Source of the DNA: Polaribacter sp. L3A8 | GTDB lineage: Bacteria; Bacteroidota; Bacteroidia; Flavobacteriales; Flavobacteriaceae | Direction of reading: 5' to 3' | Assembly: GCF_009796785.1 (NCBI RefSeq) | Contig: NZ_CP047026.1 | Coordinates: 2,648,501-2,712,500, forward strand | DNA length: 64,000 nt | Part shown: positions 2,992 through 59,408 of the stretch, in pieces | How positions within the stretch are numbered: position 1 is the first letter of the stretch | Layout of the letters: every line of letters begins with the position of its first letter | The notes under the pieces: model-generated | Database searches by the model: none | What the model was told of the DNA's origin: nothing | Seen by the model: the letters and a program-made list of their open reading frames with translations, nothing else | Program-made: the position numbers and the translations under genes

Positions 2992-3119
2992 CAGATTCGC
3001 GTTAAGGATAGAACGGTCTGTTTGAGCTCTTTTTTACTGTTAGTTAGAGTGAATTTTGAAGAATGAAAAATTTGTATCGAGAACTAGCAGTAAAAAAAGC
3101 GAGTAGTGAAAGCCTGTTA
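2992..3119 (+). repeat. Family-A hairpin repeat, copy 1, with nested family-D insert
   Basis: Starts with GTTAAGGATAGAACGG and ends with GTGAAAGCCTGTTAA. A central stem (CTCTTTTTTACTG paired with CAGTAAAAAAAGCGAG) is split by about 40 nt, running from GTTAGAGTGAATTTTG to TGTATCGAGAAC, that is nearly identical in copy 2 at 8271. It lies in the 396-bp spacer between the DinB-like gene and ahcY. The spacer holds no credible gene; weak ORFs there are translations of repeats. Confidence 0.8.
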
Positions 3120-3151
3120 AAACGCCCAAAAAGAAGTTGAATTTATAAAAA

Positions 3152-3186
3152 AGAGATTGCTTCGTCATTCTTCCTCGCAATGACAG
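3152..3186. repeat. Family-B repeat (GTCATTGCGAGG...GAAGCAATCT)
   Basis: On the minus strand this reads TGTCATTGCGAGGAAGAATG followed by ACGAAGCAATCTC. The same short unit recurs in this window at 5373-5444, 8122-8238, 8620-8697, 36502-36677 and 53145-53326, always between genes. Confidence 0.8.
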
Positions 3187-3192
3187 ATAAAG

Positions 3193-3224
3193 AAAAACCC
3201 TTTCAAATAAATGAAAGGGTTTTG
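3193..3224 (-). terminator. Rho-independent terminator of ahcY
   Basis: Inverted repeat AAAACCCTTTCA/TGAAAGGGTTTT with a 6-nt loop; read on the minus strand it is followed by a T-run. It lies about 110 bp past the ahcY stop. Confidence 0.75.
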
Positions 3225-3230
3225 TATTTA

Positions 3231-3273
3231 TGAGATTTCTCAATCGACTAAAAAGTCTCATTTAGAAATGACA
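3231..3273. repeat. Family-C repeat (GTCATTTnnAAATGAG...GATTGAGAAATCT)
   Basis: On the minus strand it reads GTCATTTCTAAATGAGAC, then TTTTTAGTCGATTGAG. Nearly the same sequence occurs at 53145-53190, and diverged copies occur at 36502-36545 and about 8062-8100. A dispersed intergenic repeat with a short self-complementary end. Confidence 0.75.
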
Positions 3274-3332
3274 AATAGTTTGTGATTTTTGATTGTCACT
3301 AATAACTAACAACCAAAAACTAACAACTTTTT

Positions 3333-4646
3333 TTAGTATCTATAGTGTTCTGGCTTATAAGGACCTTCTACAGTTACACCAATATAAGAAGCTTGTTCTT
3401 CGCGTAATTCAGTTAATTCGACACCGATTTTTGCTAAGTGTAATTTTGCTACTTTTTCATCTAAATGCTTTGGTAACATATATACTTCATTTTCGTAAGC
3501 ATCTCTGTTTGTCCAAAGTTCTATTTGAGCCAAAGTTTGGTTTGTAAATGAGTTAGACATTACAAAACTTGGGTGACCTGTTGCACAACCTAAGTTTACT
3601 AAACGACCTTCTGCTAACAAAATAATGTCGTTTCCGTTAATGTTATATTTATCAACCTGTGGTTTGATAGTATCTTTTGAAGCACCATGATTACCGTTTA
3701 ACCAAGCCATGTCAATTTCGTTATCGAAATGCCCAATGTTACAAACGATTACCTTGTCTTTCATAGCCTCAAAATGACGACCTTGAATAATATCTTTGTT
3801 TCCTGTAGTTGTAATAATAATGTCTGAATTACCAACAACAGTTTCTAAACGTTTTACCTCAAAACCATCCATTGCAGCTTGTAAAGCACAAATAGGATCG
3901 ATTTCTGTAACCGTTACAATAGAACCTGCACCTTTAAAAGAAGCTGCTGTTCCTTTACCAACATCTCCATAACCACAAACAGTTACACGTTTACCGGCTA
4001 ACATAATATCTGTTGCTCTACGAATTGCATCTACTGCAGATTCTTTACAACCATATTTATTATCGAATTTAGATTTTGTAACAGAATCGTTTACGTTAAT
4101 TGCTGGCATTGGTAAAGTTCCTGCTTTTACTCTTTCGTACAATCTATGAACTCCTGTTGTAGTTTCTTCTGATAAACCATTAATACCTGCAGCTAATTCT
4201 GGGTAACGATCTAAAACCATATTTGTTAAATCTCCACCATCATCTAAAATTAAGTTTAATGGTTTTCTGTCTTCTCCAAAGAATAAAGTTTGCTCGATAC
4301 ACCAGTCAAATTCTTCTTCAGTTAAACCTTTCCAAGCATAAACCGCTGTTCCTGCTGCTGCAATTGCTGCTGCTGCTTGATCTTGTGTAGAAAAAATATT
4401 ACAAGAACTCCAAGTAACTTCTGCTCCTAAAGCTTGTAAAGTTTCTATTAAAACTGCTGTTTGAATTGTCATGTGAAGACAACCTGCAATTCTAGCTCCT
4501 TTTAAAGGTTGCTCGTTTTTGTACTCTTCTCTTAAAGACATTAATCCTGGCATTTCTGCCTCTGCCAATAAAATTTCTTTTCTTCCCCAAGCTGCTAAAG
4601 AAATATCTTTAACTTTATTTGGTACGTAAGCTAATTTAGTGCTCAT
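3333..4646 (-). CDS. ahcY: Adenosylhomocysteinase
   Basis: A 437-residue S-adenosyl-L-homocysteine hydrolase that reversibly cleaves SAH to adenosine and homocysteine, recycling the product of all SAM-dependent methylations. Clear family landmarks are [17 protein letters not shown] near residue 55, [17 protein letters not shown], the NAD-binding [17 protein letters not shown], and the C-terminal [10 protein letters not shown] with the conserved lysine and tyrosine that reach into the partner subunit's NAD site. Cytoplasmic homotetramer in other bacteria. Length is full. A TAACTTTG box about 36 bp upstream supports the start at 4646. The gene is divergent from the phosphopantetheinyl transferase gene. 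Confidence 0.98.
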
Positions 4647-4681
4647 ATTATGTATATTTATATTCTAATTTTTTCGAGCTG

Positions 4682-4689
4682 CAAAGTTA
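4682..4689 (-). promoter_or_regulatory. -7 promoter box of ahcY
   Basis: TAACTTTG on the minus strand matches the Bacteroidetes housekeeping -7 consensus TAnnTTTG and leaves a leader of roughly 30 nt before the ATG at 4646. Confidence 0.6.
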
Positions 4690-4710
4690 CGACATCCATT
4701 TTAAAAAAGT

Positions 4711-5337
4711 ATGCCTCTTTACAAAAGTTTAACGATTAACAAAAACACTAAAGTATTCATTTGGAAAATTGAAGAATCATTTAATCAATTAAATACAAAC
4801 GTTTTACTTACTGATAAAAGTCAGACTCGTTTAGACGGAATGAAATCGGACTTACACCAAAGGGGTTTTTTAAGTGTGCGTCATTTATTAAAAGAAGCTG
4901 GTTATTCTGATTCGGATTTAGTTTATGATGAATTTGGAAAACCACACTTAAAGGATGGAAAGTTTATTTCGATAACACATTCCTTCACTTTTTCTGGGTT
5001 GATAATTTCTGATAATTTACATGTTGGTATTGATATTGAAATGCAACGTGATAAAATATTGAAAATTGCACACAAATTCACCTCCATTAAAGAGTATGTA
5101 ACCATTGCAAACCACGATGCTTTAATAAGTAAACTAACCATTGTTTGGGGAGGAAAAGAGAGCTTATATAAAATCTACGGAAAGAAAAAATTACGCTTTT
5201 TAGAAAATATTTATATTGAAGATTTTGATTTTTCTGATAAAAAGACAACTGGTAAAATTCGTTATAACGGAGAGGAAACCTCTTATACTATAGAATTTTT
5301 AGAGTTTGAAGGTTTTACGTGTGTGTATGCTTTTTAG
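4711..5337 (+). CDS. 4'-phosphopantetheinyl transferase superfamily protein
   Basis: A 208-residue Sfp/HetI-like transferase. It moves the phosphopantetheine arm of CoA onto a serine of a carrier protein. The two diagnostic motifs are HVGIDIEMQ (residues about 107-115, with the Mg-binding aspartate and glutamate) and WGGKESLYKIYGKKK (about 148-162, the WxxKEAxxK signature). Size is closer to the Sfp type (about 220 aa) than to AcpS (about 120 aa), so the target may be a secondary-metabolite or second fatty-acid carrier protein. No biosynthetic cluster lies next to it in this window. It is divergent from ahcY and followed by a family-B repeat pair. Confidence 0.88.
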   Translation: MPLYKSLTINKNTKVFIWKIEESFNQLNTNVLLTDKSQTRLDGMKSDLHQRGFLSVRHLLKEAGYSDSDLVYDEFGKPHLKDGKFISITHSFTFSGLIISDNLHVGIDIEMQRDKILKIAHKFTSIKEYVTIANHDALISKLTIVWGGKESLYKIYGKKKLRFLENIYIEDFDFSDKKTTGKIRYNGEETSYTIEFLEFEGFTCVYAF

Positions 5338-5372
5338 TTTTAATATTGAAAGTTGGAAAGTAAAAAAGTTTT

Positions 5373-5444
5373 CGTCATTGCGAAGAATGAAGCAATCTTT
5401 TATTTGAAAAACAGATTACTTCGTCATTCTTCCTCGTAATGACA
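5373..5444. repeat. Family-B repeat, inverted pair
   Basis: A forward unit (CGTCATTGCGAAGAATGAAG) is followed about 20 bp later by its reverse complement form ending CTCGTAATGACA, so the two can form a long hairpin. The ATG at 5439, the first in frame with the next gene, is part of the repeat's ATGACA end, which argues against it as the natural start codon. Confidence 0.8.
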
Positions 5445-5468
5445 TATAGGTTTTGTATTTTCGCAGTT

Positions 5469-6191
5469 GTGAATATTTATCAAAACATTTTATTAGCAAA
5501 AAAAGAGGGCAAAAAATTATTGGCTGTTTTAATAGATCCTGAAAAAATAGATCTAGATAATATTGTTGCTTTTTTTGAAAAAGTACATCAATCTATTGCT
5601 ACACATATTTTTGTTGGTGGCAGTACTGATATAAACAACGTAACCGAAAAGGTGGTTGCTGCTATTAAAAAAGAAACACATTTGCCTGTTGTTCTTTTTC
5701 CTGGAGATGTAAAACAAATTACACAAAAAGCAGACGGAATTCTATTTCTGAGTTTACTTTCTGGCAGAAATCCTGAATATTTAATTGAACAACAAATAAA
5801 AAGTGTTCCGTTTTTAAAGGATTCTAATTTAGAAATTTTACCAACGGGTTACATTTTAATTGACGGACAAAAAGAAACGGCAACACAAAGAGTAAGCAAC
5901 ACAAAACCAATTGCACAAGAAAACACAGAATTGATTTTAAACACGGCTTTAGCAGGCGAATTTTCTGGTAAAAAATTGATTTATTTAGAAGCCGGTTCTG
6001 GCGCCAAAGTGCCTGTGGACGCAAATATTATCACTGTTGTAAAAAACAACTTATCGATTCCTTTAATTGTTGGTGGCGGAATTAGAACTAAAGAACAGTT
6101 AAAAAACGCTTTTAATGCAGGTGCAGATGTAGTGGTTATTGGTACTGCTTTTGAAAATGATGAAGCTTTTTTTAACGATTTAAAAAAATAA
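5469..6191 (+). CDS. Geranylgeranylglyceryl/heptaprenylglyceryl phosphate synthase (GGGPS/PcrB family)
   Basis: A TIM-barrel prenyltransferase of about 240 residues that joins a polyprenyl diphosphate to sn-glycerol-1-phosphate by an ether bond. Landmarks are LLAVLIDPEKIDL near the start, the FVGGSTDI loop, VVLFPGDVKQI, EILPTGYILIDG, YLEAGSGA, and the phosphate-binding IVGGGIRTKEQL followed by GADVVVIGTAFE. Archaeal-type GGGPS enzymes are known in Bacteroidetes. A start at ATG 5439 is possible, but it lies inside a dispersed repeat and before the TATTTTCG box, so the GTG at 5469 (MNIYQNILLAKKEG) is preferred. The glycerol-1-phosphate source is not encoded nearby. Confidence 0.92.
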   Translation: MNIYQNILLAKKEGKKLLAVLIDPEKIDLDNIVAFFEKVHQSIATHIFVGGSTDINNVTEKVVAAIKKETHLPVVLFPGDVKQITQKADGILFLSLLSGRNPEYLIEQQIKSVPFLKDSNLEILPTGYILIDGQKETATQRVSNTKPIAQENTELILNTALAGEFSGKKLIYLEAGSGAKVPVDANIITVVKNNLSIPLIVGGGIRTKEQLKNAFNAGADVVVIGTAFENDEAFFNDLKK

Positions 6192-6253
6192 AAGTTTTCT
6201 TTATAGTTTTTCTGAATTCAATCGAAAAAAACACTCGAACTGACAGAATGTAT

Positions 6254-6261
6254 TATTTTTG
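6254..6261 (+). promoter_or_regulatory. -7 promoter box of pnuC
   Basis: TATTTTTG matches TAnnTTTG and lies 18 bp before the preferred pnuC ATG at 6280. The upstream in-frame ATG at 6259 overlaps this box and would probably not be in the transcript. Confidence 0.5.
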
Positions 6262-6279
6262 TGTTTCAAAAAAAAAACA

Positions 6280-6912
6280 ATGACTGATATTTTTGATTTT
6301 TTCTTAGCATCATATCAAGATAAACCAAGTTTTATTATTGTAATCGAAGCCATCATTTTTATTTTTGGTATCATAAGTGTTTTGTACGCTAAAAAAGAAA
6401 ATATTTTAGTATATCCTACAGGGCTAATCGCTACCATTTTATCAGTTTACCTACTATATAAAGATAAATTAATGGGTGATATGATGATGAATTTTTATTT
6501 CTCAATAATGAGTATTTATGGTTGGTGGAACTGGTCAAGAAAAAAAGATAATAAATATTTAATCCCTATTTCAAGAACAGATAATCTAGAAAAGATAATT
6601 GGTGTTGGATTATTTCTAATCACTTTTTTAATTACATATATCGTATATAAAACATCTGGAGTACCAATTGAAGTATCTAATTATATAGATATGTTTACTT
6701 CAGGTCTCTTTTTTGTAGGAATGTGGTATATGGCAAAAAAGAAATTAGAAAACTGGACTATTTGGATTATTGCGGATATTATAACAGTCCCACTTTATGC
6801 ATACCGTGGATGGGGAATGTTGTCATTACAATACCTTATCTTTACAATATTAGCCATTCAAGGTTACATCGTATGGAAAAAGAACTTAAACAAGCCCCAA
6901 TTAACATCGTAA
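6280..6912 (+). CDS. pnuC: PnuC-family nicotinamide riboside (or thiamine, PnuT-like) transporter
   Basis: A 210-residue integral membrane protein with about seven hydrophobic segments. The PnuC core is visible as SIYGWWNWSRKK (residues about 83-94) and a C-terminal IIADIITVPLYAYRGWGMLSLQYLIF, where the W, N/D and Q positions of the substrate pocket lie. PnuC proteins carry nicotinamide riboside by facilitated diffusion coupled to intracellular phosphorylation; PnuT homologues carry thiamine. The next gene encodes a NadR-like kinase and overlaps by 40 bp, which fits trapping of the substrate by phosphorylation. A TPP riboswitch and TonB receptor sit 1.5 kb downstream, so a thiamine substrate is a real alternative. 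Start at 6280 chosen over 6259 because of the promoter box. Confidence 0.88.
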   Translation: MTDIFDFFLASYQDKPSFIIVIEAIIFIFGIISVLYAKKENILVYPTGLIATILSVYLLYKDKLMGDMMMNFYFSIMSIYGWWNWSRKKDNKYLIPISRTDNLEKIIGVGLFLITFLITYIVYKTSGVPIEVSNYIDMFTSGLFFVGMWYMAKKKLENWTIWIIADIITVPLYAYRGWGMLSLQYLIFTILAIQGYIVWKKNLNKPQLTS

Positions 6913-7532
6913 AAGTTGTTTTATTCGGACCTGAATCTTCTGGTAAAACTACTCTTTCTCGTCATTTAGCACGTTATTACAATACGGTTTGGGCGCCAGA
7001 ATTTGCACGTGAATATTTACAAGAAAAATGGAACAACGAGCGTAAAACTTGCGAAAAAGATGATTTACTTCCTATTGCAATCGGACAAATGAAATTAGAA
7101 AATACGTTGGCTAAAAAGGCTGATAAAATTTTAATTTGTGATACCGATTTATTAGAAACCAAAGTATATTCCGAAGAGTTTTATGGCGGTTTTGTTGATG
7201 AAAGACTAGACGAAGCGGCAGATGAAAACACATACGACTTGTACTTATTAACGTATATAGACACGCCTTGGGAAGAAGATGATTTACGAGACAGACCAGA
7301 GCTACGTTTAGAAATGTTTAATGCTTTTGAAAAATCTTTAATAGATCATAACAGACCTTATATTTTATTAAAAGGCGATAAAGAAACTCGTTTAAAGAAT
7401 GCTACAGCAGCTATTGATAAAATAATTGCTGATAAAGAAAATTTACATTCTTTTTCTGATTCTTTACAAGATGTAGACATGCATTTTCTACATCAAAACA
7501 CGGGTGATTTTGGCACTCCGTTTGAGTATTGA
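6873..7532 (+). CDS. NadR/ribosylnicotinamide-kinase-like P-loop ATPase
   Basis: A 219-residue protein whose start, MEKELKQAPINIVKVVLFG, overlaps the end of pnuC by 40 bp in another frame. It carries a Walker A loop GPESSGKTTLSRHLA and the following WAPEFAREYLQEKW, which closely resemble the ribosylnicotinamide kinase domain of NadR. ICDTDLLETKVYSEEFYG and DTPWEEDDLRDRP fit the Walker B and lid regions. There is no NMN adenylyltransferase or DNA-binding domain, so it is a stand-alone kinase. Translational coupling to pnuC suggests that it phosphorylates the imported vitamin. In Bacteroidetes the same pair could serve thiamine salvage. The specificity is inference. Confidence 0.85.
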   Translation: MEKELKQAPINIVKVVLFGPESSGKTTLSRHLARYYNTVWAPEFAREYLQEKWNNERKTCEKDDLLPIAIGQMKLENTLAKKADKILICDTDLLETKVYSEEFYGGFVDERLDEAADENTYDLYLLTYIDTPWEEDDLRDRPELRLEMFNAFEKSLIDHNRPYILLKGDKETRLKNATAAIDKIIADKENLHSFSDSLQDVDMHFLHQNTGDFGTPFEY

Positions 7533-7543
7533 ATAACAGAAAA

Positions 7544-7571
7544 AGTGATAAGTGATAAGTGATAAGTGATA
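7544..7571. repeat. Tandem repeat, four copies of AGTGATA
   Basis: Four perfect 7-bp copies directly after the kinase gene stop. Too short and gapless for a CRISPR. Probably slippage-prone spacer DNA. Confidence 0.8.
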
Positions 7572-7636
7572 AAACTATCAATATTTATCTAAAAACACTA
7601 CTAATTTCTTTATTATAGACTTTATTTTTAGAACAA

Positions 7637-8041
7637 ATGAACAAAGAAAACATCTTAAAAGAACTCAGTTTTAAAGGCATTAGAAGTTCTGGTGCTGGCG
7701 GGCAGCATGTAAATAAAGTGTCTTCTAAAATTGAGTTGACTTTTGATTTAGAAAACTCTCTTTCTCTTTCTGATACTGAAAAAACACTTCTAAAAACAAA
7801 GCTTTCAAATAAGCTAACTAAAGAAAACACGTTGGTTTTATTTTGTGACGAATCTCGTTCTCAGCACAGAAATAAGGAAGTAGCTATAAAACGTTTTTTA
7901 GAATTATTACGGGTAAATTTAATTCGCCCGAAAAAAAGAAGACCTACAAAACCGAGCAAATCTTCTGTTCGAAAAAATGCCGAAAAGAAAAAAAGAAATT
8001 CGGTTAAAAAAACATTGAGAAAGAAACCAGGTTTAGATTAA
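7637..8041 (+). CDS. arfB: Alternative ribosome-rescue factor ArfB (YaeJ/ICT1-type peptidyl-tRNA hydrolase)
   Basis: A 134-residue codon-independent release factor that frees ribosomes stalled at the 3' end of truncated mRNA. The catalytic motif is RSSGAGGQHVNKVSSKIEL (residues about 17-35) with the GGQ loop that hydrolyses peptidyl-tRNA. The C-terminus is a lysine/arginine-rich tail (residues about 95-134) that in homologues inserts into the empty mRNA channel. The GGQ domain starts within the first 20 residues and no codon-recognition domains of RF1/RF2 are present, which separates ArfB from true release factors. A single gene; the repeat-rich spacer of the riboswitch region follows. Confidence 0.95.
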   Translation: MNKENILKELSFKGIRSSGAGGQHVNKVSSKIELTFDLENSLSLSDTEKTLLKTKLSNKLTKENTLVLFCDESRSQHRNKEVAIKRFLELLRVNLIRPKKRRPTKPSKSSVRKNAEKKKRNSVKKTLRKKPGLD

Positions 8042-8061
8042 AAATTACATTTTTTAACTTA

Positions 8062-8238
8062 AGATTCCTCAATCGTCAAACTACTCATTTCGGAATGGCT
8101 TACTTATTATTGCTTTTTAAAATGAGTTATTGCGAGGTACAAAACTCTCTTTTTATAATACCAAATAAACATCAAAATTCATTTGATATAAGGATGAGAT
8201 TGCCACAGTTTACAAAAAAGTAAACTTCGCAATGACAG
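8062..8238. repeat. Composite of diverged family-C and family-B repeats
   Basis: A family-C-like piece (CCTCAATCGTCAAACTACTC) is followed by a loose family-B inverted pair: TTATTGCGAGGTAC at about 8123 and ACTTCGCAATGACA ending at 8238. No ORF of note is present. Confidence 0.6.
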
Positions 8239-8270
8239 AAATTAAAATCGACCTAAAACCAAAAGCTAAC

Positions 8271-8412
8271 AAACAGGCTTAGCCCTGATTGAACGATCTG
8301 TTTGAGCTCTTTTTTACTGGCAGTTCGAGTGAATTTTGAAGAATGAAAAATTTGTATCGAGAACAGACTGTAAAAAAAGCGAGTAGTGAAAGCAGGAAAT
8401 AGCTTCTAAAAA
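8271..8412 (+). repeat. Family-A hairpin repeat, copy 2, with nested family-D insert
   Basis: Runs from AACAGGCTTAGCCCTGATTG to AGCAGGAAATAGCTTC. Outer arms TAGC/GCT and CCTG/CAGG pair, as do CTCTTTTTT and AAAAAAAGCGAG. The loop is enlarged by about 40 nt shared with copy 1 (from GTTCGAGTGAATTTTG to TGTATCGAGAAC). It sits just upstream of the riboswitch promoter. Confidence 0.85.
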
Positions 8413-8449
8413 AAGTGCTTTTGTTATTCTTTATGTCAAAAAACTGAGG

Positions 8450-8457
8450 TAATTTTG
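8450..8457 (+). promoter_or_regulatory. -7 promoter box of the riboswitch/TonB receptor unit
   Basis: TAATTTTG followed by CG matches TAnnTTTG. Transcription would begin at about 8464, directly before the TPP aptamer. Confidence 0.55.
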
Positions 8458-8467
8458 CGCCGTTCTC

Positions 8468-8612
8468 ATAAAGGGGTGCTAATTTTTAGTTGATGGTGTT
8501 TAGTTGTTAGTTTTTAGTCTTACTCAGACTTTTTAAACTTTCTAACTTTCAAATTAAAGAAAAGCTGAGATCATACCCATTGAACCTAGAACAGGTAATG
8601 CTGTTTAGGAAA
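8468..8612 (+). ncRNA. TPP (thiamine pyrophosphate) riboswitch aptamer
   Basis: All conserved THI-box blocks are present in order: GGGGTGC (8473-8479), GCTGAGA (8564-8570), ACCCATTGAACCT (8575-8587), then CAGGTAATGCTG (8592-8603) and TTTAGGA. About 85 nt separate the first two blocks, so the P3 arm is long. That arm is low-complexity (TTAGTTGTTAGTTTTTAGT). The aptamer lies on the strand of the TonB receptor gene, 150 bp before its ATG. TPP binding is expected to lower expression. No simple terminator hairpin was recognised, so control at translation or through the downstream repeat hairpin is possible. Confidence 0.93.
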
Positions 8613-8619
8613 TATCAAA

Positions 8620-8697
8620 TGTCATTGCGAAGATTTTTTTCTGAAGCAATCTTTCTTACTGAAGAGATTACCACGTTGTAAACTCCTCGTAATGACA
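8620..8697. repeat. Family-B repeat pair in the leader between TPP aptamer and gene
   Basis: TGTCATTGCGA at 8620-8630 and TCCTCGTAATGACA ending at 8697 are inverted copies that can pair in the transcript, with GAAGCAATCT and AGAGATTACC inside. Placed immediately 3' of the riboswitch, it could affect switching or leader folding. Confidence 0.8.
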
Positions 8698-8765
8698 GTA
8701 AATAATTATTCAAAAATCAATCACAAGAATAATTACCTCTTTTTATTCGTTTTAAAATTTTTAAA

Positions 8766-11219: not shown

Positions 11220-11270
11220 AAAAACATCATTTCTTAGTCTTTTTTGATTAAAATTGACGAAAAAATAAAC

Positions 11271-11309
11271 AAAACGAGCATTTTCTATTGAAAATCGCTC
11301 GTTTTTTCG
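11271..11309 (+). terminator. Rho-independent terminator after the TonB receptor gene
   Basis: AAAACGAGC and GCTCGTTTT form the lower stem and ATTTT/AAAAT the upper stem, followed by TTTTTT. It lies 52 bp past the stop. From here to about 11470 no feature is recognised. Confidence 0.85.
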
Positions 11310-11473
11310 TATATTGTAGATTCATGAGAAATTCTTTCTTTTACATCAAAAATAATACGAGCACTTATAGTCTTGATTTTTGTCTTACAAAAAATCATTC
11401 TAATATATCGATCACTCCTGCTTTCTAGTTTTTTAATAAAATTACATCTGTTATCATCTTCAACTTCATAAAA

Positions 11474-11489
11474 AAGTGTTTTTACACTT
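11474..11489 (+). promoter_or_regulatory. Small hairpin upstream of the 63-aa gene
   Basis: AAGTGT-TTTT-ACACTT forms a 6-bp stem ending 16 nt before the ATG at 11506. It might influence translation of the small gene and, through it, the sigma factor gene. This is inference from position only. Confidence 0.35.
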
Positions 11490-11505
11490 CTTTAAAACTA
11501 TATAT

Positions 11506-12649: not shown

Positions 12650-12667
12650 GTAAAAAACCATATAAAC

Positions 12668-42916: not shown

Positions 42917-42952
42917 GCTTTATTAACGGATTTTTATTGACTTTCTACACAC

Positions 42953-43046
42953 CGTGTTAGTGATTGAAACGGCAGCTTTTTTATAGTTTTTTTTCTAAAA
43001 CTATAAAAAACTACAGTGTAAAGCACGACCCGCAGGGAAACACCCA
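42953..43046 (+). repeat. Family-A-like hairpin element, diverged copy
   Basis: Has the same core (GATTGAAACGGC on the 5' arm; AAAGCACGACCCGCAGGGAAAC on the 3' side, here split as AAAGCACGACC and CGCAGGGAAAC). The outer arms GTGTT/AACAC pair. The central stem is a perfect 14 bp (TTTTTTATAGTTTT with its complement, 6-nt loop). It lies between the divergent folB and glnS promoters. Confidence 0.7.
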
Positions 43047-48735: not shown

Positions 48736-48743
48736 TATATTTG
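48736..48743 (+). promoter_or_regulatory. -7 promoter box directly before holB
   Basis: TATATTTG matches TAnnTTTG and ends 3 bp before the ATG at 48747. Transcription would then start at or very near the start codon, so the mRNA may be leaderless. Confidence 0.5.
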
Positions 48744-48746
48744 CCC

Positions 48747-49889
48747 ATGCTTTTCAACCAAATTATCGGCCAAGAACACATTAAAAAACACTTAAAAGTA
48801 TCTGCAGAAAACGGCAGAATTCCGCACGCGCAATTATTTGTAGGTAAAGAAGGAAGCGGCACCTTGCCAATGGCAATTGCATACGCGCAGTTTTTATTGT
48901 GTAATTTTTCTGATAATACAGACATCTGTAACTTAAAATGCGACAAGCTACAACACCCAGATTTGCATTTTGCATATCCTGTTACTTCTAATGAAAACGT
49001 AAAAAAACATCCTGTTAGTAGTTTGTTTTTAGAAGATTGGAGAACCTTTATAGCAACCCAACCATACGGTAGTTTGTTTAATTGGCTACAACATATTGGT
49101 GTAGAAAATAAACAAGGAATTATTGGTGTAGATGAAGCAGAAGAAGTTGTAAAAAAGCTACGACTTAAAAGTTACGAAGGTGGTTTTAAGGTGATGATTA
49201 TTTGGATGGCAGAAAAAATGAATATTGCTGCCGCCAACAAATTATTAAAATTAATTGAAGAACCGCCAGAAAAAACGGTTTTTATTTTAATTACAGAAAG
49301 CGAAGAACAAATTATAAATACTATAAAATCTCGCTGTCAGGCATTACATTTCCCTGCTTTAAGCGAGCAAGATATTTCTAATACTTTAGTGGTAGACCAT
49401 CAGGTTTCAGATAATGAAGCTGCAAAAATTGCGCATCAGGCAGAAGGAAATTTTAATAAAGCATTGCATTTATTACAAAATGATTCTAGTGATCTTGTTT
49501 TTGAAGAATGGTTTATTGCTTGGATTAGAACCGCTTTTAAAGCCAAAGGAAATGCCGCTGTTGTGCAACAATTAATCGAATGGTCGGAAAACATTGCCAA
49601 AACCGGACGAGAAACTCAGAAGCGTTTTTTAGAGTATTGTTTGCAATTTTTTAGACAAGCTTTACTATTAAATTACAAATCAGAAAACTTGGTTTTTATG
49701 GAAACTAAAACCGGATTTAATCTTTCTAAATTTGCTCCTTTTGTGCATTCTGGAAACATTTTAGACATAGAAAAGGAACTAAATGATGCCATGTATCATA
49801 TAGAAAGAAACGGAAATCCAAAGATTATTCTGTTAGATTTATCTATGAAATTGACTCGTTTTTTACATAAAAAAGAAGCAACTGTTTAG
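48747..49889 (+). CDS. holB: DNA polymerase III delta' subunit
   Basis: 380 residues from ATG 48747 (MLFNQIIGQEHIKKHL); a TTG two codons earlier is less likely. It is a clamp-loader subunit that helps load the sliding clamp. The AAA+ fold is clear (PHAQLFVGKEGSGTLPMA in the P-loop position, VMIIWMAEKMNIAAANKLLKLIEEPP, and SRCQALHFP). The P-loop lacks the essential lysine, as expected for a delta' that does not hydrolyse ATP. The zinc-module cysteines are only partly kept (CNFSDNTDICNLKC). The stop codon TAG overlaps the start of a family-A repeat. Confidence 0.93.
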   Translation: MLFNQIIGQEHIKKHLKVSAENGRIPHAQLFVGKEGSGTLPMAIAYAQFLLCNFSDNTDICNLKCDKLQHPDLHFAYPVTSNENVKKHPVSSLFLEDWRTFIATQPYGSLFNWLQHIGVENKQGIIGVDEAEEVVKKLRLKSYEGGFKVMIIWMAEKMNIAAANKLLKLIEEPPEKTVFILITESEEQIINTIKSRCQALHFPALSEQDISNTLVVDHQVSDNEAAKIAHQAEGNFNKALHLLQNDSSDLVFEEWFIAWIRTAFKAKGNAAVVQQLIEWSENIAKTGRETQKRFLEYCLQFFRQALLLNYKSENLVFMETKTGFNLSKFAPFVHSGNILDIEKELNDAMYHIERNGNPKIILLDLSMKLTRFLHKKEATV

Positions 49890-49985
49890 AAGCTATTTCC
49901 AGCTTTCGTTACTCGCTTTTTTTACCATAAAAAATGGTAAAAAAGAGCTCAGACAGACCACTCAATCTGGGCTAAACTTGTTTGC
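49887..49985 (-). repeat. Family-A hairpin repeat, copy 3 (short loop)
   Basis: On the minus strand: TTTAGCCCAGATTGAGTGG then GAGCTCTTTTTTACCA, and after a short loop TGGTAAAAAAAGCGAGTAAC and GAAAGCTGGAAATAGCTTC. CCAG/CTGG replaces the CCTG/CAGG pairing of copies 2 and 4, so both arms changed together. The spacer up to 50199 otherwise holds only the YCII promoter region. Confidence 0.85.
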
Positions 49986-52334: not shown

Positions 52335-52338
52335 ACTC

Positions 52339-53106: not shown

Positions 53107-53144
53107 AAAATGTATTTTTAGTAAAGTTAAGGCTTTATCCTTAA

Positions 53145-53326
53145 TGTCATTTAGAAATGAGACTTTTTAGTCGATTGAGAAATCTAAAAATAAAAGTATA
53201 ATATTTAATGAGATTGCTTCGTACCTCGCAATGACAAGAATACTGTCATTACGAGGACGATAGGACGAAGTAATCTGTTTATTTAGAGTGCTAATTTAAA
53301 AGATTGCTTAGTTACTCGCAACGACA
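53145..53326. repeat. Composite of family-C and family-B repeats
   Basis: Starts with TGTCATTTAGAAATGAGACT (family C), then AGATTGCTTCGTACCTCGCA, an inverted family-B copy (TGTCATTACGAGGACGATAG), and a last AGATTGCTTAGTTACTCGCA. At least four units back to back fill the spacer. Confidence 0.8.
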
Positions 53327-53333
53327 ACACAAA

Positions 53334-54668
53334 CTAATTACTTTCAACAAGTGGTAAAAACTTACTTCTAAACTTAATAATTAATGGCAATCCTCTTGCA
53401 ACCATCCAAAGGGTAAAAGCAATCCAGATAGCCGTTAATTTAAAATCGTAATAATCAAAAACCAATAAAGTGGGAATAAAAACCAAACCTGTAGCCAGAA
53501 TTAATAAGTTTCTTAAATATTTCATTTCTCCCATTCCTTTAAACATTCCATCAAAAATAAAAGTGACCGCATTTAAAGGTTGCATTAGTAAAACAATCCA
53601 AAAAACATTGTAAAACTGCTCTAAAACAGCGGTTTCTTTCGTAAAAATCTGTCCGATGAAATCGTAAAAAATAAAACCTACCAAAGCAATAATTATTCCT
53701 ATTGCTAATCCGTATTTAAAAAGTTCGTTACTTAATAACACCAAAGATTTATACGATTTAGCGCCCAAGAACTTGCCAGATAAAATATTTCCGGCACTTG
53801 CATATCCATCAATCATAAAAGCACCTAAAAGCCAAATATTAATACCAATTGTATACGCCGCAATATATTCTTTTCCGTAATCTGTAGCATAAGAAGTTGC
53901 AAAGTATAAAGCTGTATTTAAAGCAATGGTTCTTATAAAAAGGTTACCAATCATCCCTAATAATCGTGGGATTTCTGAATGTAATTTCAATGAAATCCTT
54001 AATGAAATAGGCGTTTTTTTCATCAACAAAACAAGAGCAATAATAGCCATAGTAATTTGCGCAATAATACTTGCATAAGCAGCACCTTCTATATTCATTG
54101 CAGGAATGTATCCTTCTACTCCATAAACCAAAATAATATCTAAAAAAACATTTAACAAAGCACCAATAATTGCAATTATCATTGGGTAATACGTGTTTTG
54201 CAAACCTCTAAAAATACCAAAAACAGCAAATACAAAAAGTGAAAACGGAAATCCGAAAATTCTTATTTTAAAATAGGTAACGCAATAGTCTAAAACAGTA
54301 CCAGATGCATTGTAAAATTGAAAAATTTGTTTCGCAAACGGATAAGAAATTGCTAATACAAACAAACTTCCTAAAACTACAATGGCAATTGCTTGTGCTG
54401 GTAAAGCTTTTACTTCATCCAATTTATTGGCGCCTACATATTGAGAAATAATAGAAGAAATAGCACTTCTAATTTGTCCGAAAACCCAAATTAACATCGA
54501 TATAAATGCACCTACAATACCAACAGCGGCTAAACTTTCGGTGGCATTTTCATTAATATTACCAATAATTGCAGTGTCTGTAATAGAGAGTAATGGTTCT
54601 GCAATACCAGCAATTAAAGCAGGAATTGCCAATTTATTTATTCTCTTAAAACTAATATTTTTATCCAA
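53334..54668 (-). CDS. MATE-family efflux transporter
   Basis: 444 residues from TTG 54668; longer frames exist from ATG 54695 and 54725. The promoter box TACCTTTG (54685-54692) lies over the codon region after ATG 54695, so that ATG is probably not transcribed and the TTG is preferred. The N-terminus RINKLAIPALIAGIAEPLLSITDTAIIG and WVFGQIRSAISSIISQYVGA, followed by a second six-helix bundle with ILSGKFLGAK, identify a 12-helix MATE pump (DinF-like branch). It exports drugs or cations in exchange for Na+ or H+. Divergent from the Usp gene. Confidence 0.9.
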   Translation of the reverse strand: MDKNISFKRINKLAIPALIAGIAEPLLSITDTAIIGNINENATESLAAVGIVGAFISMLIWVFGQIRSAISSIISQYVGANKLDEVKALPAQAIAIVVLGSLFVLAISYPFAKQIFQFYNASGTVLDYCVTYFKIRIFGFPFSLFVFAVFGIFRGLQNTYYPMIIAIIGALLNVFLDIILVYGVEGYIPAMNIEGAAYASIIAQITMAIIALVLLMKKTPISLRISLKLHSEIPRLLGMIGNLFIRTIALNTALYFATSYATDYGKEYIAAYTIGINIWLLGAFMIDGYASAGNILSGKFLGAKSYKSLVLLSNELFKYGLAIGIIIALVGFIFYDFIGQIFTKETAVLEQFYNVFWIVLLMQPLNAVTFIFDGMFKGMGEMKYLRNLLILATGLVFIPTLLVFDYYDFKLTAIWIAFTLWMVARGLPLIIKFRSKFLPLVESN

Positions 54669-54684
54669 GAAATACTTTTTTTGG

Positions 54685-54692
54685 CAAAGGTA
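54685..54692 (-). promoter_or_regulatory. -7 promoter box of the MATE gene
   Basis: TACCTTTG on the minus strand, matching TAnnTTTG, 17 bp before the TTG at 54668. It decides the start choice. Confidence 0.5.
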
Positions 54693-54736
54693 CATATCTA
54701 AAAAAGGTAAGCAGAAAGGTTTCAATGAAAAATAAC

Positions 54737-54744
54737 TAACTTTG
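54737..54744 (+). promoter_or_regulatory. -7 promoter box of the Usp gene
   Basis: TAACTTTG, matching TAnnTTTG, followed by GC, 20 bp before the ATG at 54764. Confidence 0.6.
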
Positions 54745-54763
54745 CAGCAATAAATATAGCATT

Positions 54764-55555
54764 ATGAAAAATATTTTAGTACCTATTGGATCTACAGAAA
54801 ATGCACAATCTACTTTGCAATATGCCATTGATTTTGCTGCCGAAATAAATGCAGATGTGTTAGTTTTTAGAGCTTACAAAGCAAAATCTAAAGCAGGAAC
54901 AATGGTAAATATGACGGCCATTATTGAACGTGAAACCAATCTATATCTAAGAACAATGGTAAGCGCTGTTGATAGAAAAAATGTAGCTGTAAAATTAATT
55001 TCATCTAAAGGTAGTGTTGCTGAAAATGTGGAAGCTATTGATGATGAAATTGGAATAGATTTAGTAATTGTAGGTGCTAAAAGTAATTCTATTAAAGAAG
55101 AAGTTTTTTTAGGAGCTACCGCTGGTAGTATTGTAAAAAACACAAACTTACCAGTATTAACAGTACCTGAAGGATATGTTTACAAACCAGTAAAAAATAT
55201 ACTATTAGCCTTTAAAACTGGAATTGTAAAAAGTAAAACAGCTTTAACTCCTTTAAAGTTTATTGTTAAAAGTTTTAAAACGGACGTACATTCTTTGCTA
55301 GTAAAAACAGCTCGTTATAAAGAAGAAGATTTAGTTGTAGATAAAGATTTACTTGAAATACAAACTTCATTTACCACAACAGAAAATACAACTACATTTC
55401 AAGGTGTATTAGAGCATTTTAAATATCATAACCCAGATATGTTATGCGTTTTTAGACGTAAACGTGGTTTCTTTAAAAAATTATGGAAAAAGAAGATTAT
55501 TTTAAAACAAGAATTTCATACTTCTATTCCTTTATTAATTTTAAAAGGAAAATAA
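54764..55555 (+). CDS. Universal stress protein (UspA family)
   Basis: 263 residues. The N-terminal Usp domain (1-140) has MKNILVPIGSTENAQSTLQY, DFAAEINADVLVFRAY, and VIVGAKSNSIKEEVFLGATAGSIVKNTNLPVLTVPE. GxxGS-type nucleotide-binding loop residues are partly kept (GATAGS). A second, more diverged half (VKNILLAFKTGIVKSKTAL onwards) gives the tandem arrangement common in Bacteroidetes. It probably binds ATP or AMP and helps survival under stress. Single gene. Confidence 0.92.
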   Translation: MKNILVPIGSTENAQSTLQYAIDFAAEINADVLVFRAYKAKSKAGTMVNMTAIIERETNLYLRTMVSAVDRKNVAVKLISSKGSVAENVEAIDDEIGIDLVIVGAKSNSIKEEVFLGATAGSIVKNTNLPVLTVPEGYVYKPVKNILLAFKTGIVKSKTALTPLKFIVKSFKTDVHSLLVKTARYKEEDLVVDKDLLEIQTSFTTTENTTTFQGVLEHFKYHNPDMLCVFRRKRGFFKKLWKKKIILKQEFHTSIPLLILKGK

Positions 55556-55556
55556 A

Positions 55557-58295
55557 CTAGTATTTTAAATCTGCTGGTTCTATAAAATCTACATCAAGGG
55601 TATACATCTCTTTGATGTAGGTTTTTATTTCTACCATAAATTCCTCTAACTTTTCTTCTGTTATTTCTACGTCGGGTTTTCTATAATTTGACGAAAAATT
55701 GACAGATAAAAATCCACTATTTAGGTTTTTAAAAGAATAAATTCCGCCTTCTAAAGGTTGCTTAAAATCGTACTTTTTACTTTTAGTATATAAATAAGCG
55801 TATAACAATACTTGTATGGCTTTGTGCTGCTCTTTTTCTCTTAATTTATCAAATTCTACAACGCGTAAATCTGCACTACTTACCATGCCTGTTTTATAAT
55901 CTATAATACGTAAAACTCCATTTAATTGATCTACTCGATCTACTTGGCCATGAATTTTTATAGGATAATCAATTCCTTCAATTTCTATTTCTGCAGCTAA
56001 GTTTTCTTCGGTTGCCAAAATCTTTAATTGATTGTTTTTATCTTTTAATAATTCTTTTTCTTGTGATAAAAAATTATTAACAAATCGGTTAGCCACTTCA
56101 AAAATTAAACGATTTCTACCTGTAGAAATATCTCCGTTTTTAAAGGCTTCTTTAAAATGTTTCTCCACCAAATCTTTCGATTTTTTGCCCATCGAATCAA
56201 TATCTTCTACTTGTAAAAACTTACCTACAAACGGTGTGTATAGTTCATCTAATGTTTCATGAACAACAGTACCTAAGGTGTTATAAGCAACGGTTTCCTC
56301 TACATCTTCAAACTCTTTTAACTTAATTATTTTCTGTTTGTAAAACGAAATTGGGTTGTATAAATAATTGGTTAATGCAGACGGAGAAATTCCTTTTACA
56401 GCCAATTCTTTTAGTTTATCTAAAACAGTTTTATCTTTTTTAATTTCTTTCAACTCCACTTTTTGATTTAGTACTTTTGGGGCAACCGTTTTCTGAATAA
56501 CATCTGTTCGCATCATTTCTAATTGCGTAACAAAACGGCTTTTCTCTCCACTTCCTAAAACATCGTGCTCTGTATTATAAATGATAAACACATTTTTGGC
56601 TCTTTGCATCAATCTAAAAAAGTGATACGAAAAAATAGCATCTTTTTCTCTGTAAGTTGGTAAGCCAAACTCTACTTTAACATCAAAAGGAATAAAAGAA
56701 TTTTGCTGACTACTTGCTGGTAAAACACCTTCGTTTGTAGAAATTAAAATAATGTTTTCGAAATCTAAAACACGGGTTTCTAACATACCCATTAACTGTA
56801 AACCTCTTAAAGGCTCTCCTTGAAACGATAAACTTTCCGAAGATATTAATTGTCTAAAAAAGAGGGCTAATGTTTTTAAATCTGGAAAATATTTAAATTC
56901 ATTTTGCAAGGTTTTTAGTTGCGTGAAGGTGGTGTAAAAACGGAACAAATATTCCCTTTCTAAATCGCTTACATCTTCTTTTAAAAGATTGATTAAGTTT
57001 AAAACTCGATCTATAAATTCATCTACAGAAACGTACGAATTAAAAATTGAAACAAGAACTACTTGTAATTCTGCACTGGTATTTTTTAATAATTTATTAA
57101 GATCATTTTGTTTGATAAACGTCTGGTTATGTTTTGCTATATTGTCTGAAAAAGCATCTATTTCTGGTATTAATTTATAAATAGATTGTTGTTTTAAAAA
57201 CCGAATTACATCTTTATAATAAAACTCATTTACAATACCTTTTTGTAATTTTTCTTGAGAAATAAATAATTGAAATATAGAAAATAACAAGTTGGTTGTT
57301 GGCACATCTTTTAAAGGATATCCCATGGTAATATTAATTGCATTGATGTTTTTAGGCAAAGAATTTAACGTTATTGGCAACAACGTTTCATCTGCTAAAA
57401 CTAATGCTGTATTTTTAAAATCAGTAATTTTTTCTAAAATTTCTCCTGCATATTTTATTTGAGTCGTGTTTTTAGAAGCTCCAATTACTTCAATATTTTT
57501 AGGCTCAGAAAAGGTACTACCTAACGTTTGTATTTCGTTTTTCTCGTAGTATTTCCATTGTTTTTTATACCTTCTGATGAATTTTCCGGCTTGATGATTA
57601 GACTTAAAAAAAACTTCATCAATATCCCAATAAATTTCTGAATTACCACTTTCTAAAACTTTCTGAAACAATAATTCTTCGGCAGTATTTAGAGCGTTAA
57701 ACCCAATAATAAAAAACTTCTTCGTTGAATTTCTTTCTAAAAAATCGTCAATTTTATTACAAGATTCTCTATAAATTAAACCTTGGTAACCAATGTTTTT
57801 TTCTTTTAAAAATTGATAAAAGGCATCGTAATAAACATTCAGTTTCTCTAAAAACGAATAATGATCTTTCATTAATTCCGTTTCTGTAAATTCTCCATCT
57901 ACAGACCATTTTTTTAAACGTTGAATATCTCTTAAATAAATAAAGATGTTTTTAGTTTCTATTAAATGTTGGTCTATTTCGTTAAAATCTTGAATAACGG
58001 TAAATGCCCAAGAGGCAAAAACATCGAAAGTTACAGGTTCTTTCTCTAAACCTTTATAAATAGTATAAAAATGAAATAACAATTGAATGCTGTCTGCCTT
58101 TTCTATGCCTGAAACTTTATTGATAAATTGCTCTACATTGATAACTTCTGGTAAAAAACCAACTGTAATTTTATCTTTAAAGGTTTGTTTTACAAACACT
58201 TTTGCTCTTTGAGATGGAAGTATAAATACTACATCTTGAAAAGATTTTGTAGTTTTTAAAATGTTTTCTATAGTATCAGAAATAAAAGATTGCAT
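55557..58295 (-). CDS. AddB-like PD-(D/E)XK nuclease of a RecBCD/AddAB-type complex
   Basis: 912 residues from ATG 58295. The upstream extension to 58331 reads MSGRAQSRPILT and is a translation of a dispersed repeat, so it is rejected. The N-terminal part (VVFILPSQRAKVFVKQTF) resembles an inactivated helicase domain of AddB. The C-terminal nuclease domain has GTVVHETLDELY and the catalytic IHGQVDRVDQLNGVLRIIDYKTG (residues about 780-810). It would process double-strand ends with an AddA helicase-nuclease, not encoded here. The iron-sulfur cysteines of Firmicutes AddB are absent. Length is normal for Bacteroidetes. Confidence 0.88.
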   Translation of the reverse strand: MQSFISDTIENILKTTKSFQDVVFILPSQRAKVFVKQTFKDKITVGFLPEVINVEQFINKVSGIEKADSIQLLFHFYTIYKGLEKEPVTFDVFASWAFTVIQDFNEIDQHLIETKNIFIYLRDIQRLKKWSVDGEFTETELMKDHYSFLEKLNVYYDAFYQFLKEKNIGYQGLIYRESCNKIDDFLERNSTKKFFIIGFNALNTAEELLFQKVLESGNSEIYWDIDEVFFKSNHQAGKFIRRYKKQWKYYEKNEIQTLGSTFSEPKNIEVIGASKNTTQIKYAGEILEKITDFKNTALVLADETLLPITLNSLPKNINAINITMGYPLKDVPTTNLLFSIFQLFISQEKLQKGIVNEFYYKDVIRFLKQQSIYKLIPEIDAFSDNIAKHNQTFIKQNDLNKLLKNTSAELQVVLVSIFNSYVSVDEFIDRVLNLINLLKEDVSDLEREYLFRFYTTFTQLKTLQNEFKYFPDLKTLALFFRQLISSESLSFQGEPLRGLQLMGMLETRVLDFENIILISTNEGVLPASSQQNSFIPFDVKVEFGLPTYREKDAIFSYHFFRLMQRAKNVFIIYNTEHDVLGSGEKSRFVTQLEMMRTDVIQKTVAPKVLNQKVELKEIKKDKTVLDKLKELAVKGISPSALTNYLYNPISFYKQKIIKLKEFEDVEETVAYNTLGTVVHETLDELYTPFVGKFLQVEDIDSMGKKSKDLVEKHFKEAFKNGDISTGRNRLIFEVANRFVNNFLSQEKELLKDKNNQLKILATEENLAAEIEIEGIDYPIKIHGQVDRVDQLNGVLRIIDYKTGMVSSADLRVVEFDKLREKEQHKAIQVLLYAYLYTKSKKYDFKQPLEGGIYSFKNLNSGFLSVNFSSNYRKPDVEITEEKLEEFMVEIKTYIKEMYTLDVDFIEPADLKY

Positions 58296-58305
58296 AGTTA
58301 AAATA

Positions 58306-58367
58306 GGTCTCGACTGCGCTCGACCAGACATTTAGGAGAACTTGTCTCCTCGAGCGGAGTCGAGAGG
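58306..58367. repeat. Family-D repeats (CTCGACTGCGCTCGA), inverted pair
   Basis: GGTCTCGACTGCGCTCGACC and an inverted copy TCCTCGAGCGGAGTCGAGAG flank a short loop. It lies between the nuclease gene and the omega-amidase gene. Confidence 0.8.
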
Positions 58368-58400
58368 TTTATATTAAATACCAAATTACAATTTTTATCC

Positions 58401-58408
58401 TATTTTTG
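58401..58408 (+). promoter_or_regulatory. -7 promoter box of the omega-amidase gene
   Basis: TATTTTTG followed by AG, matching TAnnTTTG, 33 bp before the ATG at 58441. Confidence 0.55.
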
Positions 58409-58440
58409 AGTAATCAAATTTTTAATTTTAAAATAAAAAA

Positions 58441-59247
58441 ATGCAAAACGAATTGAACATTGTTGGTATTCAGGCTGATTTAGTTTGGGAAAACCCAACT
58501 GAAAATATTGCTTTTTTTGAAGAAAAAATAAACGCACTTTCTAAAAACACCGATCTTGTTGTTTTACCAGAAATGTTTACTTCTGGTTTCACCATGAATC
58601 CAGAAAAGGTTGCGGAAGAAATGAATGGAATTTCGGTTTCTTGGATGCAAAAAATGGCGACAGAAAATGCTCTTGCAATTTGTGGTAGCTTGGTGATATA
58701 CGAAAGACCTTTCGACTGCGCTCAAAGTGACAAAAAATATTACAATCGTTTGGTTTTTGTGCATCCTGATGGTAAAATAGAAACCTATGACAAACGACAT
58801 TCTTTTACCTTGGCAGGAGAAGACAAAGTGTATACTTCTGGTGCTGTAAAGCTAATTGTAAATTATAAAGGATGGAAAATTTGTCCGTTAATTTGTTACG
58901 ATTTACGTTTTCCTGTTTGGGCTAGAAACACCGAAAATTACGATCTTTTAATTTTTATGGCAAATTGGCCTGTAATTAGAATTAAAGCTTGGGAAACACT
59001 TTTAAAAGCACGTGCTATAGAAAATATGTGTTATGTTATTGGCGTAAATAGAACCGGAAAGGATGCTAATAATTATGATTACTCTGGAAACTCTTTAGTC
59101 TTGAATTTTTTGGGTGATGAACTTTCTCAATTAGAAAATAATAAAGTAGGACTTGTTACCGTTACTTTGGTGAAAACCGAGCAAGATTCAGTTAGAAAAA
59201 AACTTGGTTTTTTAAATGATATGGATACTTTTAACATTGATTTCTAA
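58441..59247 (+). CDS. Nitrilase-superfamily omega-amidase (YafV-like)
   Basis: 268 residues. The Glu-Lys-Cys triad is present: Glu44 in LPEMFTSGF, Lys118 in YDKRHSF, and Cys152 in LICYDLRFP. The family hydrolyses omega-amides such as alpha-ketoglutaramate or alpha-ketosuccinamate. Cytoplasmic. Odd point: between SLVI and YYNRLVFVHPDG, where I expect only a few residues, there is an extra ERPFDCAQSDK (residues 88-98). Its DNA (58708-58732) is a copy of a dispersed repeat. The insert lies at a surface loop and away from the triad, so the enzyme may still work. Confidence 0.94.
   Translation: MQNELNIVGIQADLVWENPTENIAFFEEKINALSKNTDLVVLPEMFTSGFTMNPEKVAEEMNGISVSWMQKMATENALAICGSLVIYERPFDCAQSDKKYYNRLVFVHPDGKIETYDKRHSFTLAGEDKVYTSGAVKLIVNYKGWKICPLICYDLRFPVWARNTENYDLLIFMANWPVIRIKAWETLLKARAIENMCYVIGVNRTGKDANNYDYSGNSLVLNFLGDELSQLENNKVGLVTVTLVKTEQDSVRKKLGFLNDMDTFNIDF
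58708..58732. repeat. Family-D repeat fragment inside the omega-amidase gene
   Basis: CCTTTCGACTGCGCTCAAAG followed by TGACA matches the repeat core CTCGACTGCGCTCGA and TGACA ends seen at 58306 and 44925. In frame, it encodes PFDCAQSD. Confidence 0.75.
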
Positions 59248-59262
59248 TGTTTTACAACAAAA

Positions 59263-59300
59263 AAAAGACCTTTCTGCTTTTAAACTGAAAGGTCTTTTAA
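59263..59300 (+). terminator. Rho-independent terminator after the omega-amidase gene
   Basis: AAAAGACCTTTC/GAAAGGTCTTTT with a 12-nt loop, 15 bp past the stop. Confidence 0.85.
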
Positions 59301-59316
59301 AATTATATATAAGTTA

Positions 59317-59408
59317 GCAAACAAGGCTAGCCCTGATTGAACGGCTTGTTTGAGCTCTTTTTTGTTTTTTCAAAAAAAGCGAGTAGTGAAAGCAGGAAAT
59401 AGCTTCTA
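59317..59408 (+). repeat. Family-A hairpin repeat, copy 4 (short loop)
   Basis: GCAAACAAGGCTAGCCCTGA at the left and AGCAGGAAATAGCTTC at the right, with GAGCTCTTTTTT and AAAAAAAGCGAG around a loop of about 10 nt. It shows what copies 1 and 2 look like without the nested insert. Confidence 0.85.

Follow-up and report, generated by a model that had tools for sequence, protein, structure and literature searches.

Five similar hairpins lie between the genes of a 64,000-nucleotide stretch of the Polaribacter sp. L3A8 chromosome (contig NZ_CP047026.1, positions 2,648,501 to 2,712,500; hereafter the window), and they raise the question of what they are and why the cell carries them. We report that they almost certainly belong to the Rfam family Flavo-1 (RF01705), that their fold is kept by selection and that some of their positions are inherited across species and genera, and we tentatively propose that they act in cis, as RNA, at gene boundaries. 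Weinberg et al. 2010 (PMC2864571) list Flavo-1 as RNA 'y', cis-regulatory 'n' and switch 'n', a 2022 review places it among the abundant small RNA (sRNA) families without function, and the open-licence literature searched yielded no function for it.

Anatomy and identity of the five repeats

A long hairpin with interruptions can form on the strand on which Rfam models Flavo-1 (the Rfam strand); its parts are an outer clamp, an inner core and a freely varying apical stem. This anatomy was read from 85 oriented stretches, namely 80 fetched from the L3A8 genome and the five window copies. The outer clamp is either of type I, TAGCCC..GGAAATAGCT (arms also written TAGCCC..GGAAATAGCTTCTAA), or of type II, GCGTTAgGG..CCcgACC(hairpin)GGAACGCCC or a short form, the type II arms reading GCGTTAGGG..CCCGACC(hairpin)GGAACGCCC or, in short, ..CCTGTTAAAACGCCC among the 85 stretches. 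The core is either core A (GATTGAAxyGGCATCC..GATATAyxGGAAAGC, with the sub-variant GAAAATCC/GATTGTA) or core B (GATTGAxyGG..TTTGAGCTC..GCGAGTAyxGAAAGC), with internal loops GNA/GNA or GA/GA. A pattern blind to pairing parsed 72 of the 85 stretches, the 13 unparsed including two window copies. The GNA/GNA loop, its length set by the pattern, is found in 63 of 66 core-A copies from L3A8 and relatives, and the GA/GA loop, its G and A set by the pattern, in 28 of 33 core-B copies. Another repeat (GTTCGAGTGAATTT..TATCGAGAAC) occupies the apical loop of seven L3A8 copies, in the same orientation in 7/7 (loci L014, L040, L047, L053 and L055, and window positions 3040-3088 and 8320-8367). Further repeats were seen in the internal loop of L055, L060 and L077, and of L075 and L076. 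The window features are as follows:

2999 to 3129, plus strand: copy 1, with outer type II arms GCGTTAAGG..CCTGTTAAAACGCCC, core B and another repeat in the apical loop
3040 to 3088, plus strand: the nested other repeat (GTTAGAGTGAATTT..TATCGAGAAC), in the apical loop of copy 1
8270 to 8409, plus strand: copy 2, with an outer clamp of type I (TAGCCC..GGAAATAGCTTCTAA) and core B, the nested repeat of copy 1 being present here too
42954 to 43045, plus strand: copy 3, with outer type II arms (GTGTT/AACAC) and a core-A-like core
49886 to 49985, minus strand: copy 4, with outer type I arms and core B
59318 to 59409, plus strand: copy 5, with outer type I arms and core B

All five copies are present at the places and on the strands given by an earlier, sequence-only reading of the window, and those at 3.0 and 8.3 kb owe their greater length to another repeat within the apical loop. 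The core described there as common to all is not in all five. Its left half, GATTGAACGG, is exact in the 59.3-kb copy only, with one mismatch at 3.0 and 8.3 kb and two at 42.95 and 49.9 kb, whereas its right half, GAGTAGTGAAAGC, is exact in three copies, has two mismatches at 49.9 kb and is absent at 42.95 kb, where the copy has a different core, GATTGAAACGGCAGC..CTACAGTGTAAAGC. Taken singly, neither core word exceeds its frequency in shuffled sequence (24 matches in the window versus 34.7 expected, and 11 versus 14.0), so that the case rests on both halves jointly. The lower-stem pairs reported earlier do hold once the diverged copy is not counted in the numbering, with CCTG/CAGG at 8.3 and 59.3 kb, CCAG/CTGG at 49.9 kb and AGG/CCT at 3.0 kb, and the outer GTGTT/AACAC ascribed to the diverged copy is indeed that of the 42.95-kb copy.

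That these repeats are Flavo-1 is nearly certain, which bears out the mention, in the same reading, of similar elements in other Flavobacteriaceae. As such they are non-coding elements, dispersed between the genes of Flavobacteriales chromosomes. Two Rfam families exceed their cut-offs in the window, a tRNA and Flavo-1 at 42943-43034, the latter being copy 3 (53 bits, E 1.2e-8; the Flavo-1 gathering cut-off is 42 bits and its model spans 76 positions). With a loose threshold, copy 4 (38.0 bits, E 1.6e-4), copy 5 (35.2 bits, E 9.4e-4) and copy 2 (24.4 bits, E 0.9) match RF01705 below the cut-off, and copy 1 (2992-3119) is absent from its matches at E<=10; the arms of copy 1, judged by eye, leave no doubt as to its family membership. 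Core B, present in four of the five window copies, is poorly scored by Rfam. The whole L3A8 genome (4,224,107 bases, one contig) gave 83 Flavo-1 matches at E<=1, 57 of them over the cut-off. Scoring covered only 150 of 1171 first-look candidates and the resulting list lacks window copies 1 and 2, so that the figure of 83 is incomplete and must be expected to include chance matches.

The fold is kept while its bases change

The sequence-only reading had proposed selection on the folded form. From the following lines of evidence, all of them comparisons between copies, we regard such selection as demonstrated, pairing being kept while the bases change, orthologous sites included. First, in 43 L3A8 core-A copies 98.9% of the cells are paired, 11 of 17 pairs show double changes, and the covariation score of 0.477 compares with 0.137 in shuffles, none of 500 reaching it, and with no more than 0.077 in slid controls; 50 of 500 shuffles reach the observed count of further pair types. 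Second, a covariance model (R1), made from core-A copies only and therefore under-counting core-B copies, gave 101 matches in 100 of 119 genome-contig loci, which had been drawn from other genomes by the core-A pattern. These matches are 98.2% paired, with double changes in 11 pairs and a score of 0.387, versus 0.110 shuffled and at most 0.063 slid. Third, 31 core-B copies (29 distinct) are 98.9% paired and score 0.208, versus 0.047 shuffled, with two of five measures not above shuffles (double-change pairs, 98/500; pair types, 268/500). Fourth, the orthologs of copy 3 show double changes, with all tested pairs standard in 9/9 sequences: the outer GTGTT/AACAC goes with P1 GTG/CAC in the window and in genomes G053, G049, G052 and G065, the outer GCGTT/AACGC goes with P1 GCG/CGC in G044, G001 and G021, and G067 has AGG/CCT. 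Fifth, copy 4 has a double change between two genomes, GT/AC versus GC/GC.

As to the strand, G.U pairs outnumber A.C pairs on the Rfam strand by 28:4 in a model-made alignment (the model favours G.U) and by 10:2 without the apical columns, by 7:2 in the pairing-blind parse, and by 37:16 in 149 distinct apical parts (17:9 within stems). In 49 of 65 L3A8 copies and 67 of 93 others, the Rfam strand has the lower folding energy. Together, these counts and energies favour the Rfam strand as the one that probably folds, be it as RNA or as single-stranded DNA (ssDNA), which they do not tell apart.

Inherited, gained and decaying copies

Some positions have evidently been inherited across species and genera, to judge from their flanks, and some of these lie beside housekeeping genes (gene calls come from a longest open reading frame (ORF) script, not from a trained gene finder). 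Copy 1 adjoins an S-adenosylhomocysteine-hydrolase-like gene (ahcY side). Its site was examined in 34 relatives, a non-random choice from 57 same-genus relatives, by judging the printed stretches by eye (in one set of five, the model alone missed one), and it is occupied in 18 of the 34, one copy being decayed (G067). All 17 intact orthologs have type II arms with the left arm TTAAGGAT; since 11 of them carry core B and 6 core A within these constant outer arms, the inner part changed and the outer arms stayed. Window copy 1 is itself mixed, with the left GATAG of the core-A orthologs and a core B on the right. Copy 3, whose neighbours are a folB-like gene and a glutamyl/glutaminyl-tRNA-synthetase-like gene, is present in 8 of 9 relatives in which both flanks were found, and absent in G057. 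In the comparison across genera, 188 genes flank the genome-contig loci, and 35 of these are homologous to one of 144 L3A8 flanking genes; of the 35, 23 lie on the same side and strand (chance 1/4, p 4e-7), 5 have the element inverted and 7 have it at another gene end; gene end and orientation are common to an L3A8 copy in 16 of 95 loci of other genomes. The loci compared include Tenacibaculum, Psychroserpens, Flavobacterium, Gelidibacter, Gaetbulibacter and Algibacter.

By the same kind of comparison, copies are also gained, decay and are missing from whole genomes. Copy 4, whose 3' edge is the stop codon of a DNA polymerase III delta'-like gene (48741-49889; overlap 49886-49889), is found among readable relatives in G053 only and is absent in seven others, the G049 stretch reading N. 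At this edge in G053 (L107), the delta'-like reading frame continues and stops at a TAG inside the element edge. For copy 2, G057 has an empty site with two stop codons joined at TTAA, and the only shared bases that could be a target duplication are this TTAA, which are the two stop codons too. Copy 5 sits between a C-N hydrolase-like gene, which has its own hairpin and T tail before the copy, and a fatty-acid-desaturase-like gene; G044, G067 and G065 have it intact, G053 and G052 have it in decayed form, and G001, G021 and G057 lack it, with none seen in the rearranged neighbourhood of G004. The combination of lacking covariation, random placement and core decay, named by the sequence-only reading as speaking against selection, was not found as a whole, but single copies do decay, as copy 5 does in G053 and G052.

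Flavo-1 was found at E<=1e-4 in 56 of 196 genomes of the order Flavobacteriales. Among same-genus relatives, three that are at least 90% complete (G002, G003 and G010) have zero Flavo-1, and others have 50 to 90. A scan with the core-A pattern gave, among the matches listed, Flavobacteriales, Sphingobacteriales and two metagenome-assembled genomes labelled otherwise (L152 and L189, labelled Woesearchaeota and Nitrotoga), which are probably mis-binned contigs. The core-A pattern also occurs in three viral contigs, two of which pass Rfam, one beside an ORF that reads as integrase-like.

Gene context

Both flanks were available for 87 of the 101 genome-contig matches. In type I elements, the 3' end of the right neighbour faces the element in 49 of 64 cases (29/35 in L3A8, 20/29 in others; p 2e-5), with its stop codon often 9-21 nt from the core end, and of the 318 flanks counted, 180 have a gene's 3' end towards the element (p 0.02). 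An ORF survey of 80 L3A8 copies, with L078-L082 (truncated, interrupted or unrecognisable) left out of the count, gave 34 in tandem antisense, 23 convergent, 17 in tandem sense, 5 divergent and 1 undetermined. An intrinsic terminator lies within 300 nt of 4 of 41 genes that end at most 30 nt from an element, versus 67 of 241 controls (p 0.012).

A possible cis-acting role at gene boundaries and its rivals

Our first choice, tentative and with an inferred mechanism, is that Flavo-1 is a cis-acting RNA element at gene boundaries. The host would keep the copies because they act in cis at these boundaries, most likely by way of structured RNA, at the ends of transcripts or close to them, that would end, trim or shield the transcripts; the action would be in cis, not that of a trans-acting sRNA. 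A fuller version, which we consider rather unlikely, makes Flavo-1 a host-retained, strand-specific and modular boundary element, in which a locus-bound clamp would hold an exchangeable core A or core B hairpin, serving as cis-acting chromosomal punctuation beside the 3' ends of housekeeping genes. If true, this would be chromosomal punctuation of a kind undescribed in other bacteria. Orthologous loci with and without Flavo-1 (the ahcY, folB, holB and desaturase sides) make the function testable by simple deletions.

The following points weigh against a cis-acting role. First, 5 of 23 same-genus relatives have no match (two of the five being about 70% complete), and the copies are dispensable, since they are absent from some relatives and decayed or missing at other sites. 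Second, for type II elements no bias in orientation is seen (51 of 89, p 0.2), and where the neighbours are in tandem they mostly have the Rfam strand as antisense (34 versus 17 sense), so that read-through would often fail to make it. Third, the terminator deficit is gone in a distance-matched zone of 100-250 nt (2/41 versus 14/241, p 1; a comparison without distance matching gives 2/41 versus 76/316), and may therefore only mean that the element occupies the room. Fourth, the element itself was rejected as an intrinsic terminator (1/159 on the Rfam strand, 5/159 on the other). Fifth, the idea of an mRNA 3' end element, put forward in the sequence-only reading, draws circumstantial support from the gene context, but the passage on Flavo-1 in the F. 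psychrophilum transcriptome paper (PMC9723704) describes matches equally sense and antisense to transcribed regions, with many outside them, and gives no real functional clue.

The second reading, a close rival though somewhat unlikely on balance, is that of a miniature element like ERIC, BOX or a miniature inverted-repeat transposable element (MITE), which a trans-acting enzyme would spread, the fold serving the spreading and not the host, and the gene-end places being tolerated or preferred. It would suit the copy numbers (about 70-90 in L3A8, G053 and G049, versus 0 to at least 91 in same-genus relatives, G018 having at least 91, as many as were scored there), the restriction of copy 4, among readable relatives, to L3A8 and G053, the near-identical core-B copies with unlike flanks and the other repeats nested inside copies. 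However, a gene end and orientation common across genera and double changes between orthologs are not expected of idle insertions, and there is no clear target duplication. Furthermore, clustering the flanking proteins of 173 elements revealed no recurrent partner gene (the largest family covers 4 loci), and blastn with a single copy of each clamp type (201 bases apiece) gave no match in 50,697 phage and 72,556 plasmid records.

Less probable still, and quite unlikely in our view, is a folded ssDNA site (attC-like or like the end of an insertion sequence) that a DNA-binding or DNA-cutting protein would read in replication or repair. In integrons, attC sites carry R/L boxes that the integron integrase cuts. 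DNA, too, tolerates G.A and G.T pairs, the fold is strand-specific without a pattern of sense transcription, and L3A8 copies run 48 against and 23 with the replication fork as estimated from GC skew (sampled loci: +6/-19 in the positive-skew part, +35/-21 in the negative-skew part). The excess persists in convergent or divergent gene pairs (16 against, 6 with, p 0.05). Genes, however, show much the same overall bias (90 leading, 52 lagging), and the fork bias of the copies, though present, is not separable from gene orientation. Moreover, with copies running against the fork, the folded strand would not be the lagging-strand template, and no enzyme was found. Copy orientation was also seen to vary along the chromosome, in G049 and G053 by binning by eye only.

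A trans-acting sRNA gene, as in the Rfam type 'Gene; sRNA', would account for that label and for a stable fold with a G.U preference on one strand, but is very improbable, as about 80 divergent copies in one genome and the F. psychrophilum passage cited above speak against it. The promoter proxy does so too. The Bacteroidetes -7 promoter motif is TANNTTTG, and on neither strand does it show an excess reading into the element (7/69, 4/69, 9/104 and 13/104, versus 8.1, 5.7, 14.0 and 10.5 shuffled), its excess reading away from the element, as expected of the neighbouring genes. The lack of this motif excess and the lack of a Flavo-1 copy near either L3A8 Y1-transposase-like gene make both the sRNA gene and a repetitive extragenic palindrome (REP) driven by a REP-associated tyrosine transposase (RAYT) unlikely.

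The latter, a REP/BIME-type repeat moved by RAYT, is the least probable of all: Flavo-1 is palindromic, intergenic and many-copied, and one copy lies on one side, 0.5-1.4 kb away, of 2 of 10 fetched Y1_Tnp loci, but no RAYT gene was flanked on both sides in these ten (0/10 with the core-A model, which may miss core B), the two L3A8 Y1_Tnp genes have no listed Flavo-1 within 40 kb, searches for Y1_Tnp genes in the Flavo-1-rich G001 (62 matches) and G021 (57) gave no match, and head and size are wrong, so that the transposase association suggested by the sequence-only reading is not supported.

Other elements of the window

A TPP-riboswitch-like sequence lies at 8462-8628 (plus strand), upstream of a TonB-receptor-like gene; it scores 31.2 bits against a cut-off of 54.3 and has an extra stretch between GGGGTGC and CTGAGA, and the ortholog in L098, without this stretch, scores 50.9 bits. 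A second repeat family is built around CGCAATGACA (for example at 3174-3185, 8226-8237 and 53225-53236), with 15 matches at up to 2 mismatches in the window versus 6.1 expected (0/100 shuffles as high).

Comparison with known systems

Similarly to intrinsic terminators, Flavo-1 is a hairpin near gene 3' ends, but its stem is broken by purine loops and its T tract lies inside the stem, not after it. Two papers (PMC3733652, PMC2817692) give as REP criteria a GTAG- or CGTC-type head and a palindrome of 20-40 bp. Like REP/BIME elements with RAYT, Flavo-1 is intergenic, palindromic and present in tens of copies; it differs by its size of 80-140 nt, by the lack of such a head in the 85 oriented copies (by inspection), by the lack of a flanked transposase gene and by places common across genera.

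ERIC and BOX elements are modular, intergenic, imperfect palindromes of about 100 nt, with inherited places and no known function. Flavo-1 resembles them in size, imperfect palindromy, modularity, intergenic location and inherited places, but they are elements of other phyla.

The closest comparison is with RF01705 itself, since the window repeats have its paired core and also come from Flavobacteriales. They differ from the model in that the core-B copies (2x2 loop) fall under its cut-off, in that the two outer clamp types and a three-way form lie mostly beyond its 76 positions, and in the repeats nested in their apical part. Flavo-1 has been catalogued since 2010, and our comparison now supplies its probable folded strand, its modular anatomy and a variant that Rfam under-scores.

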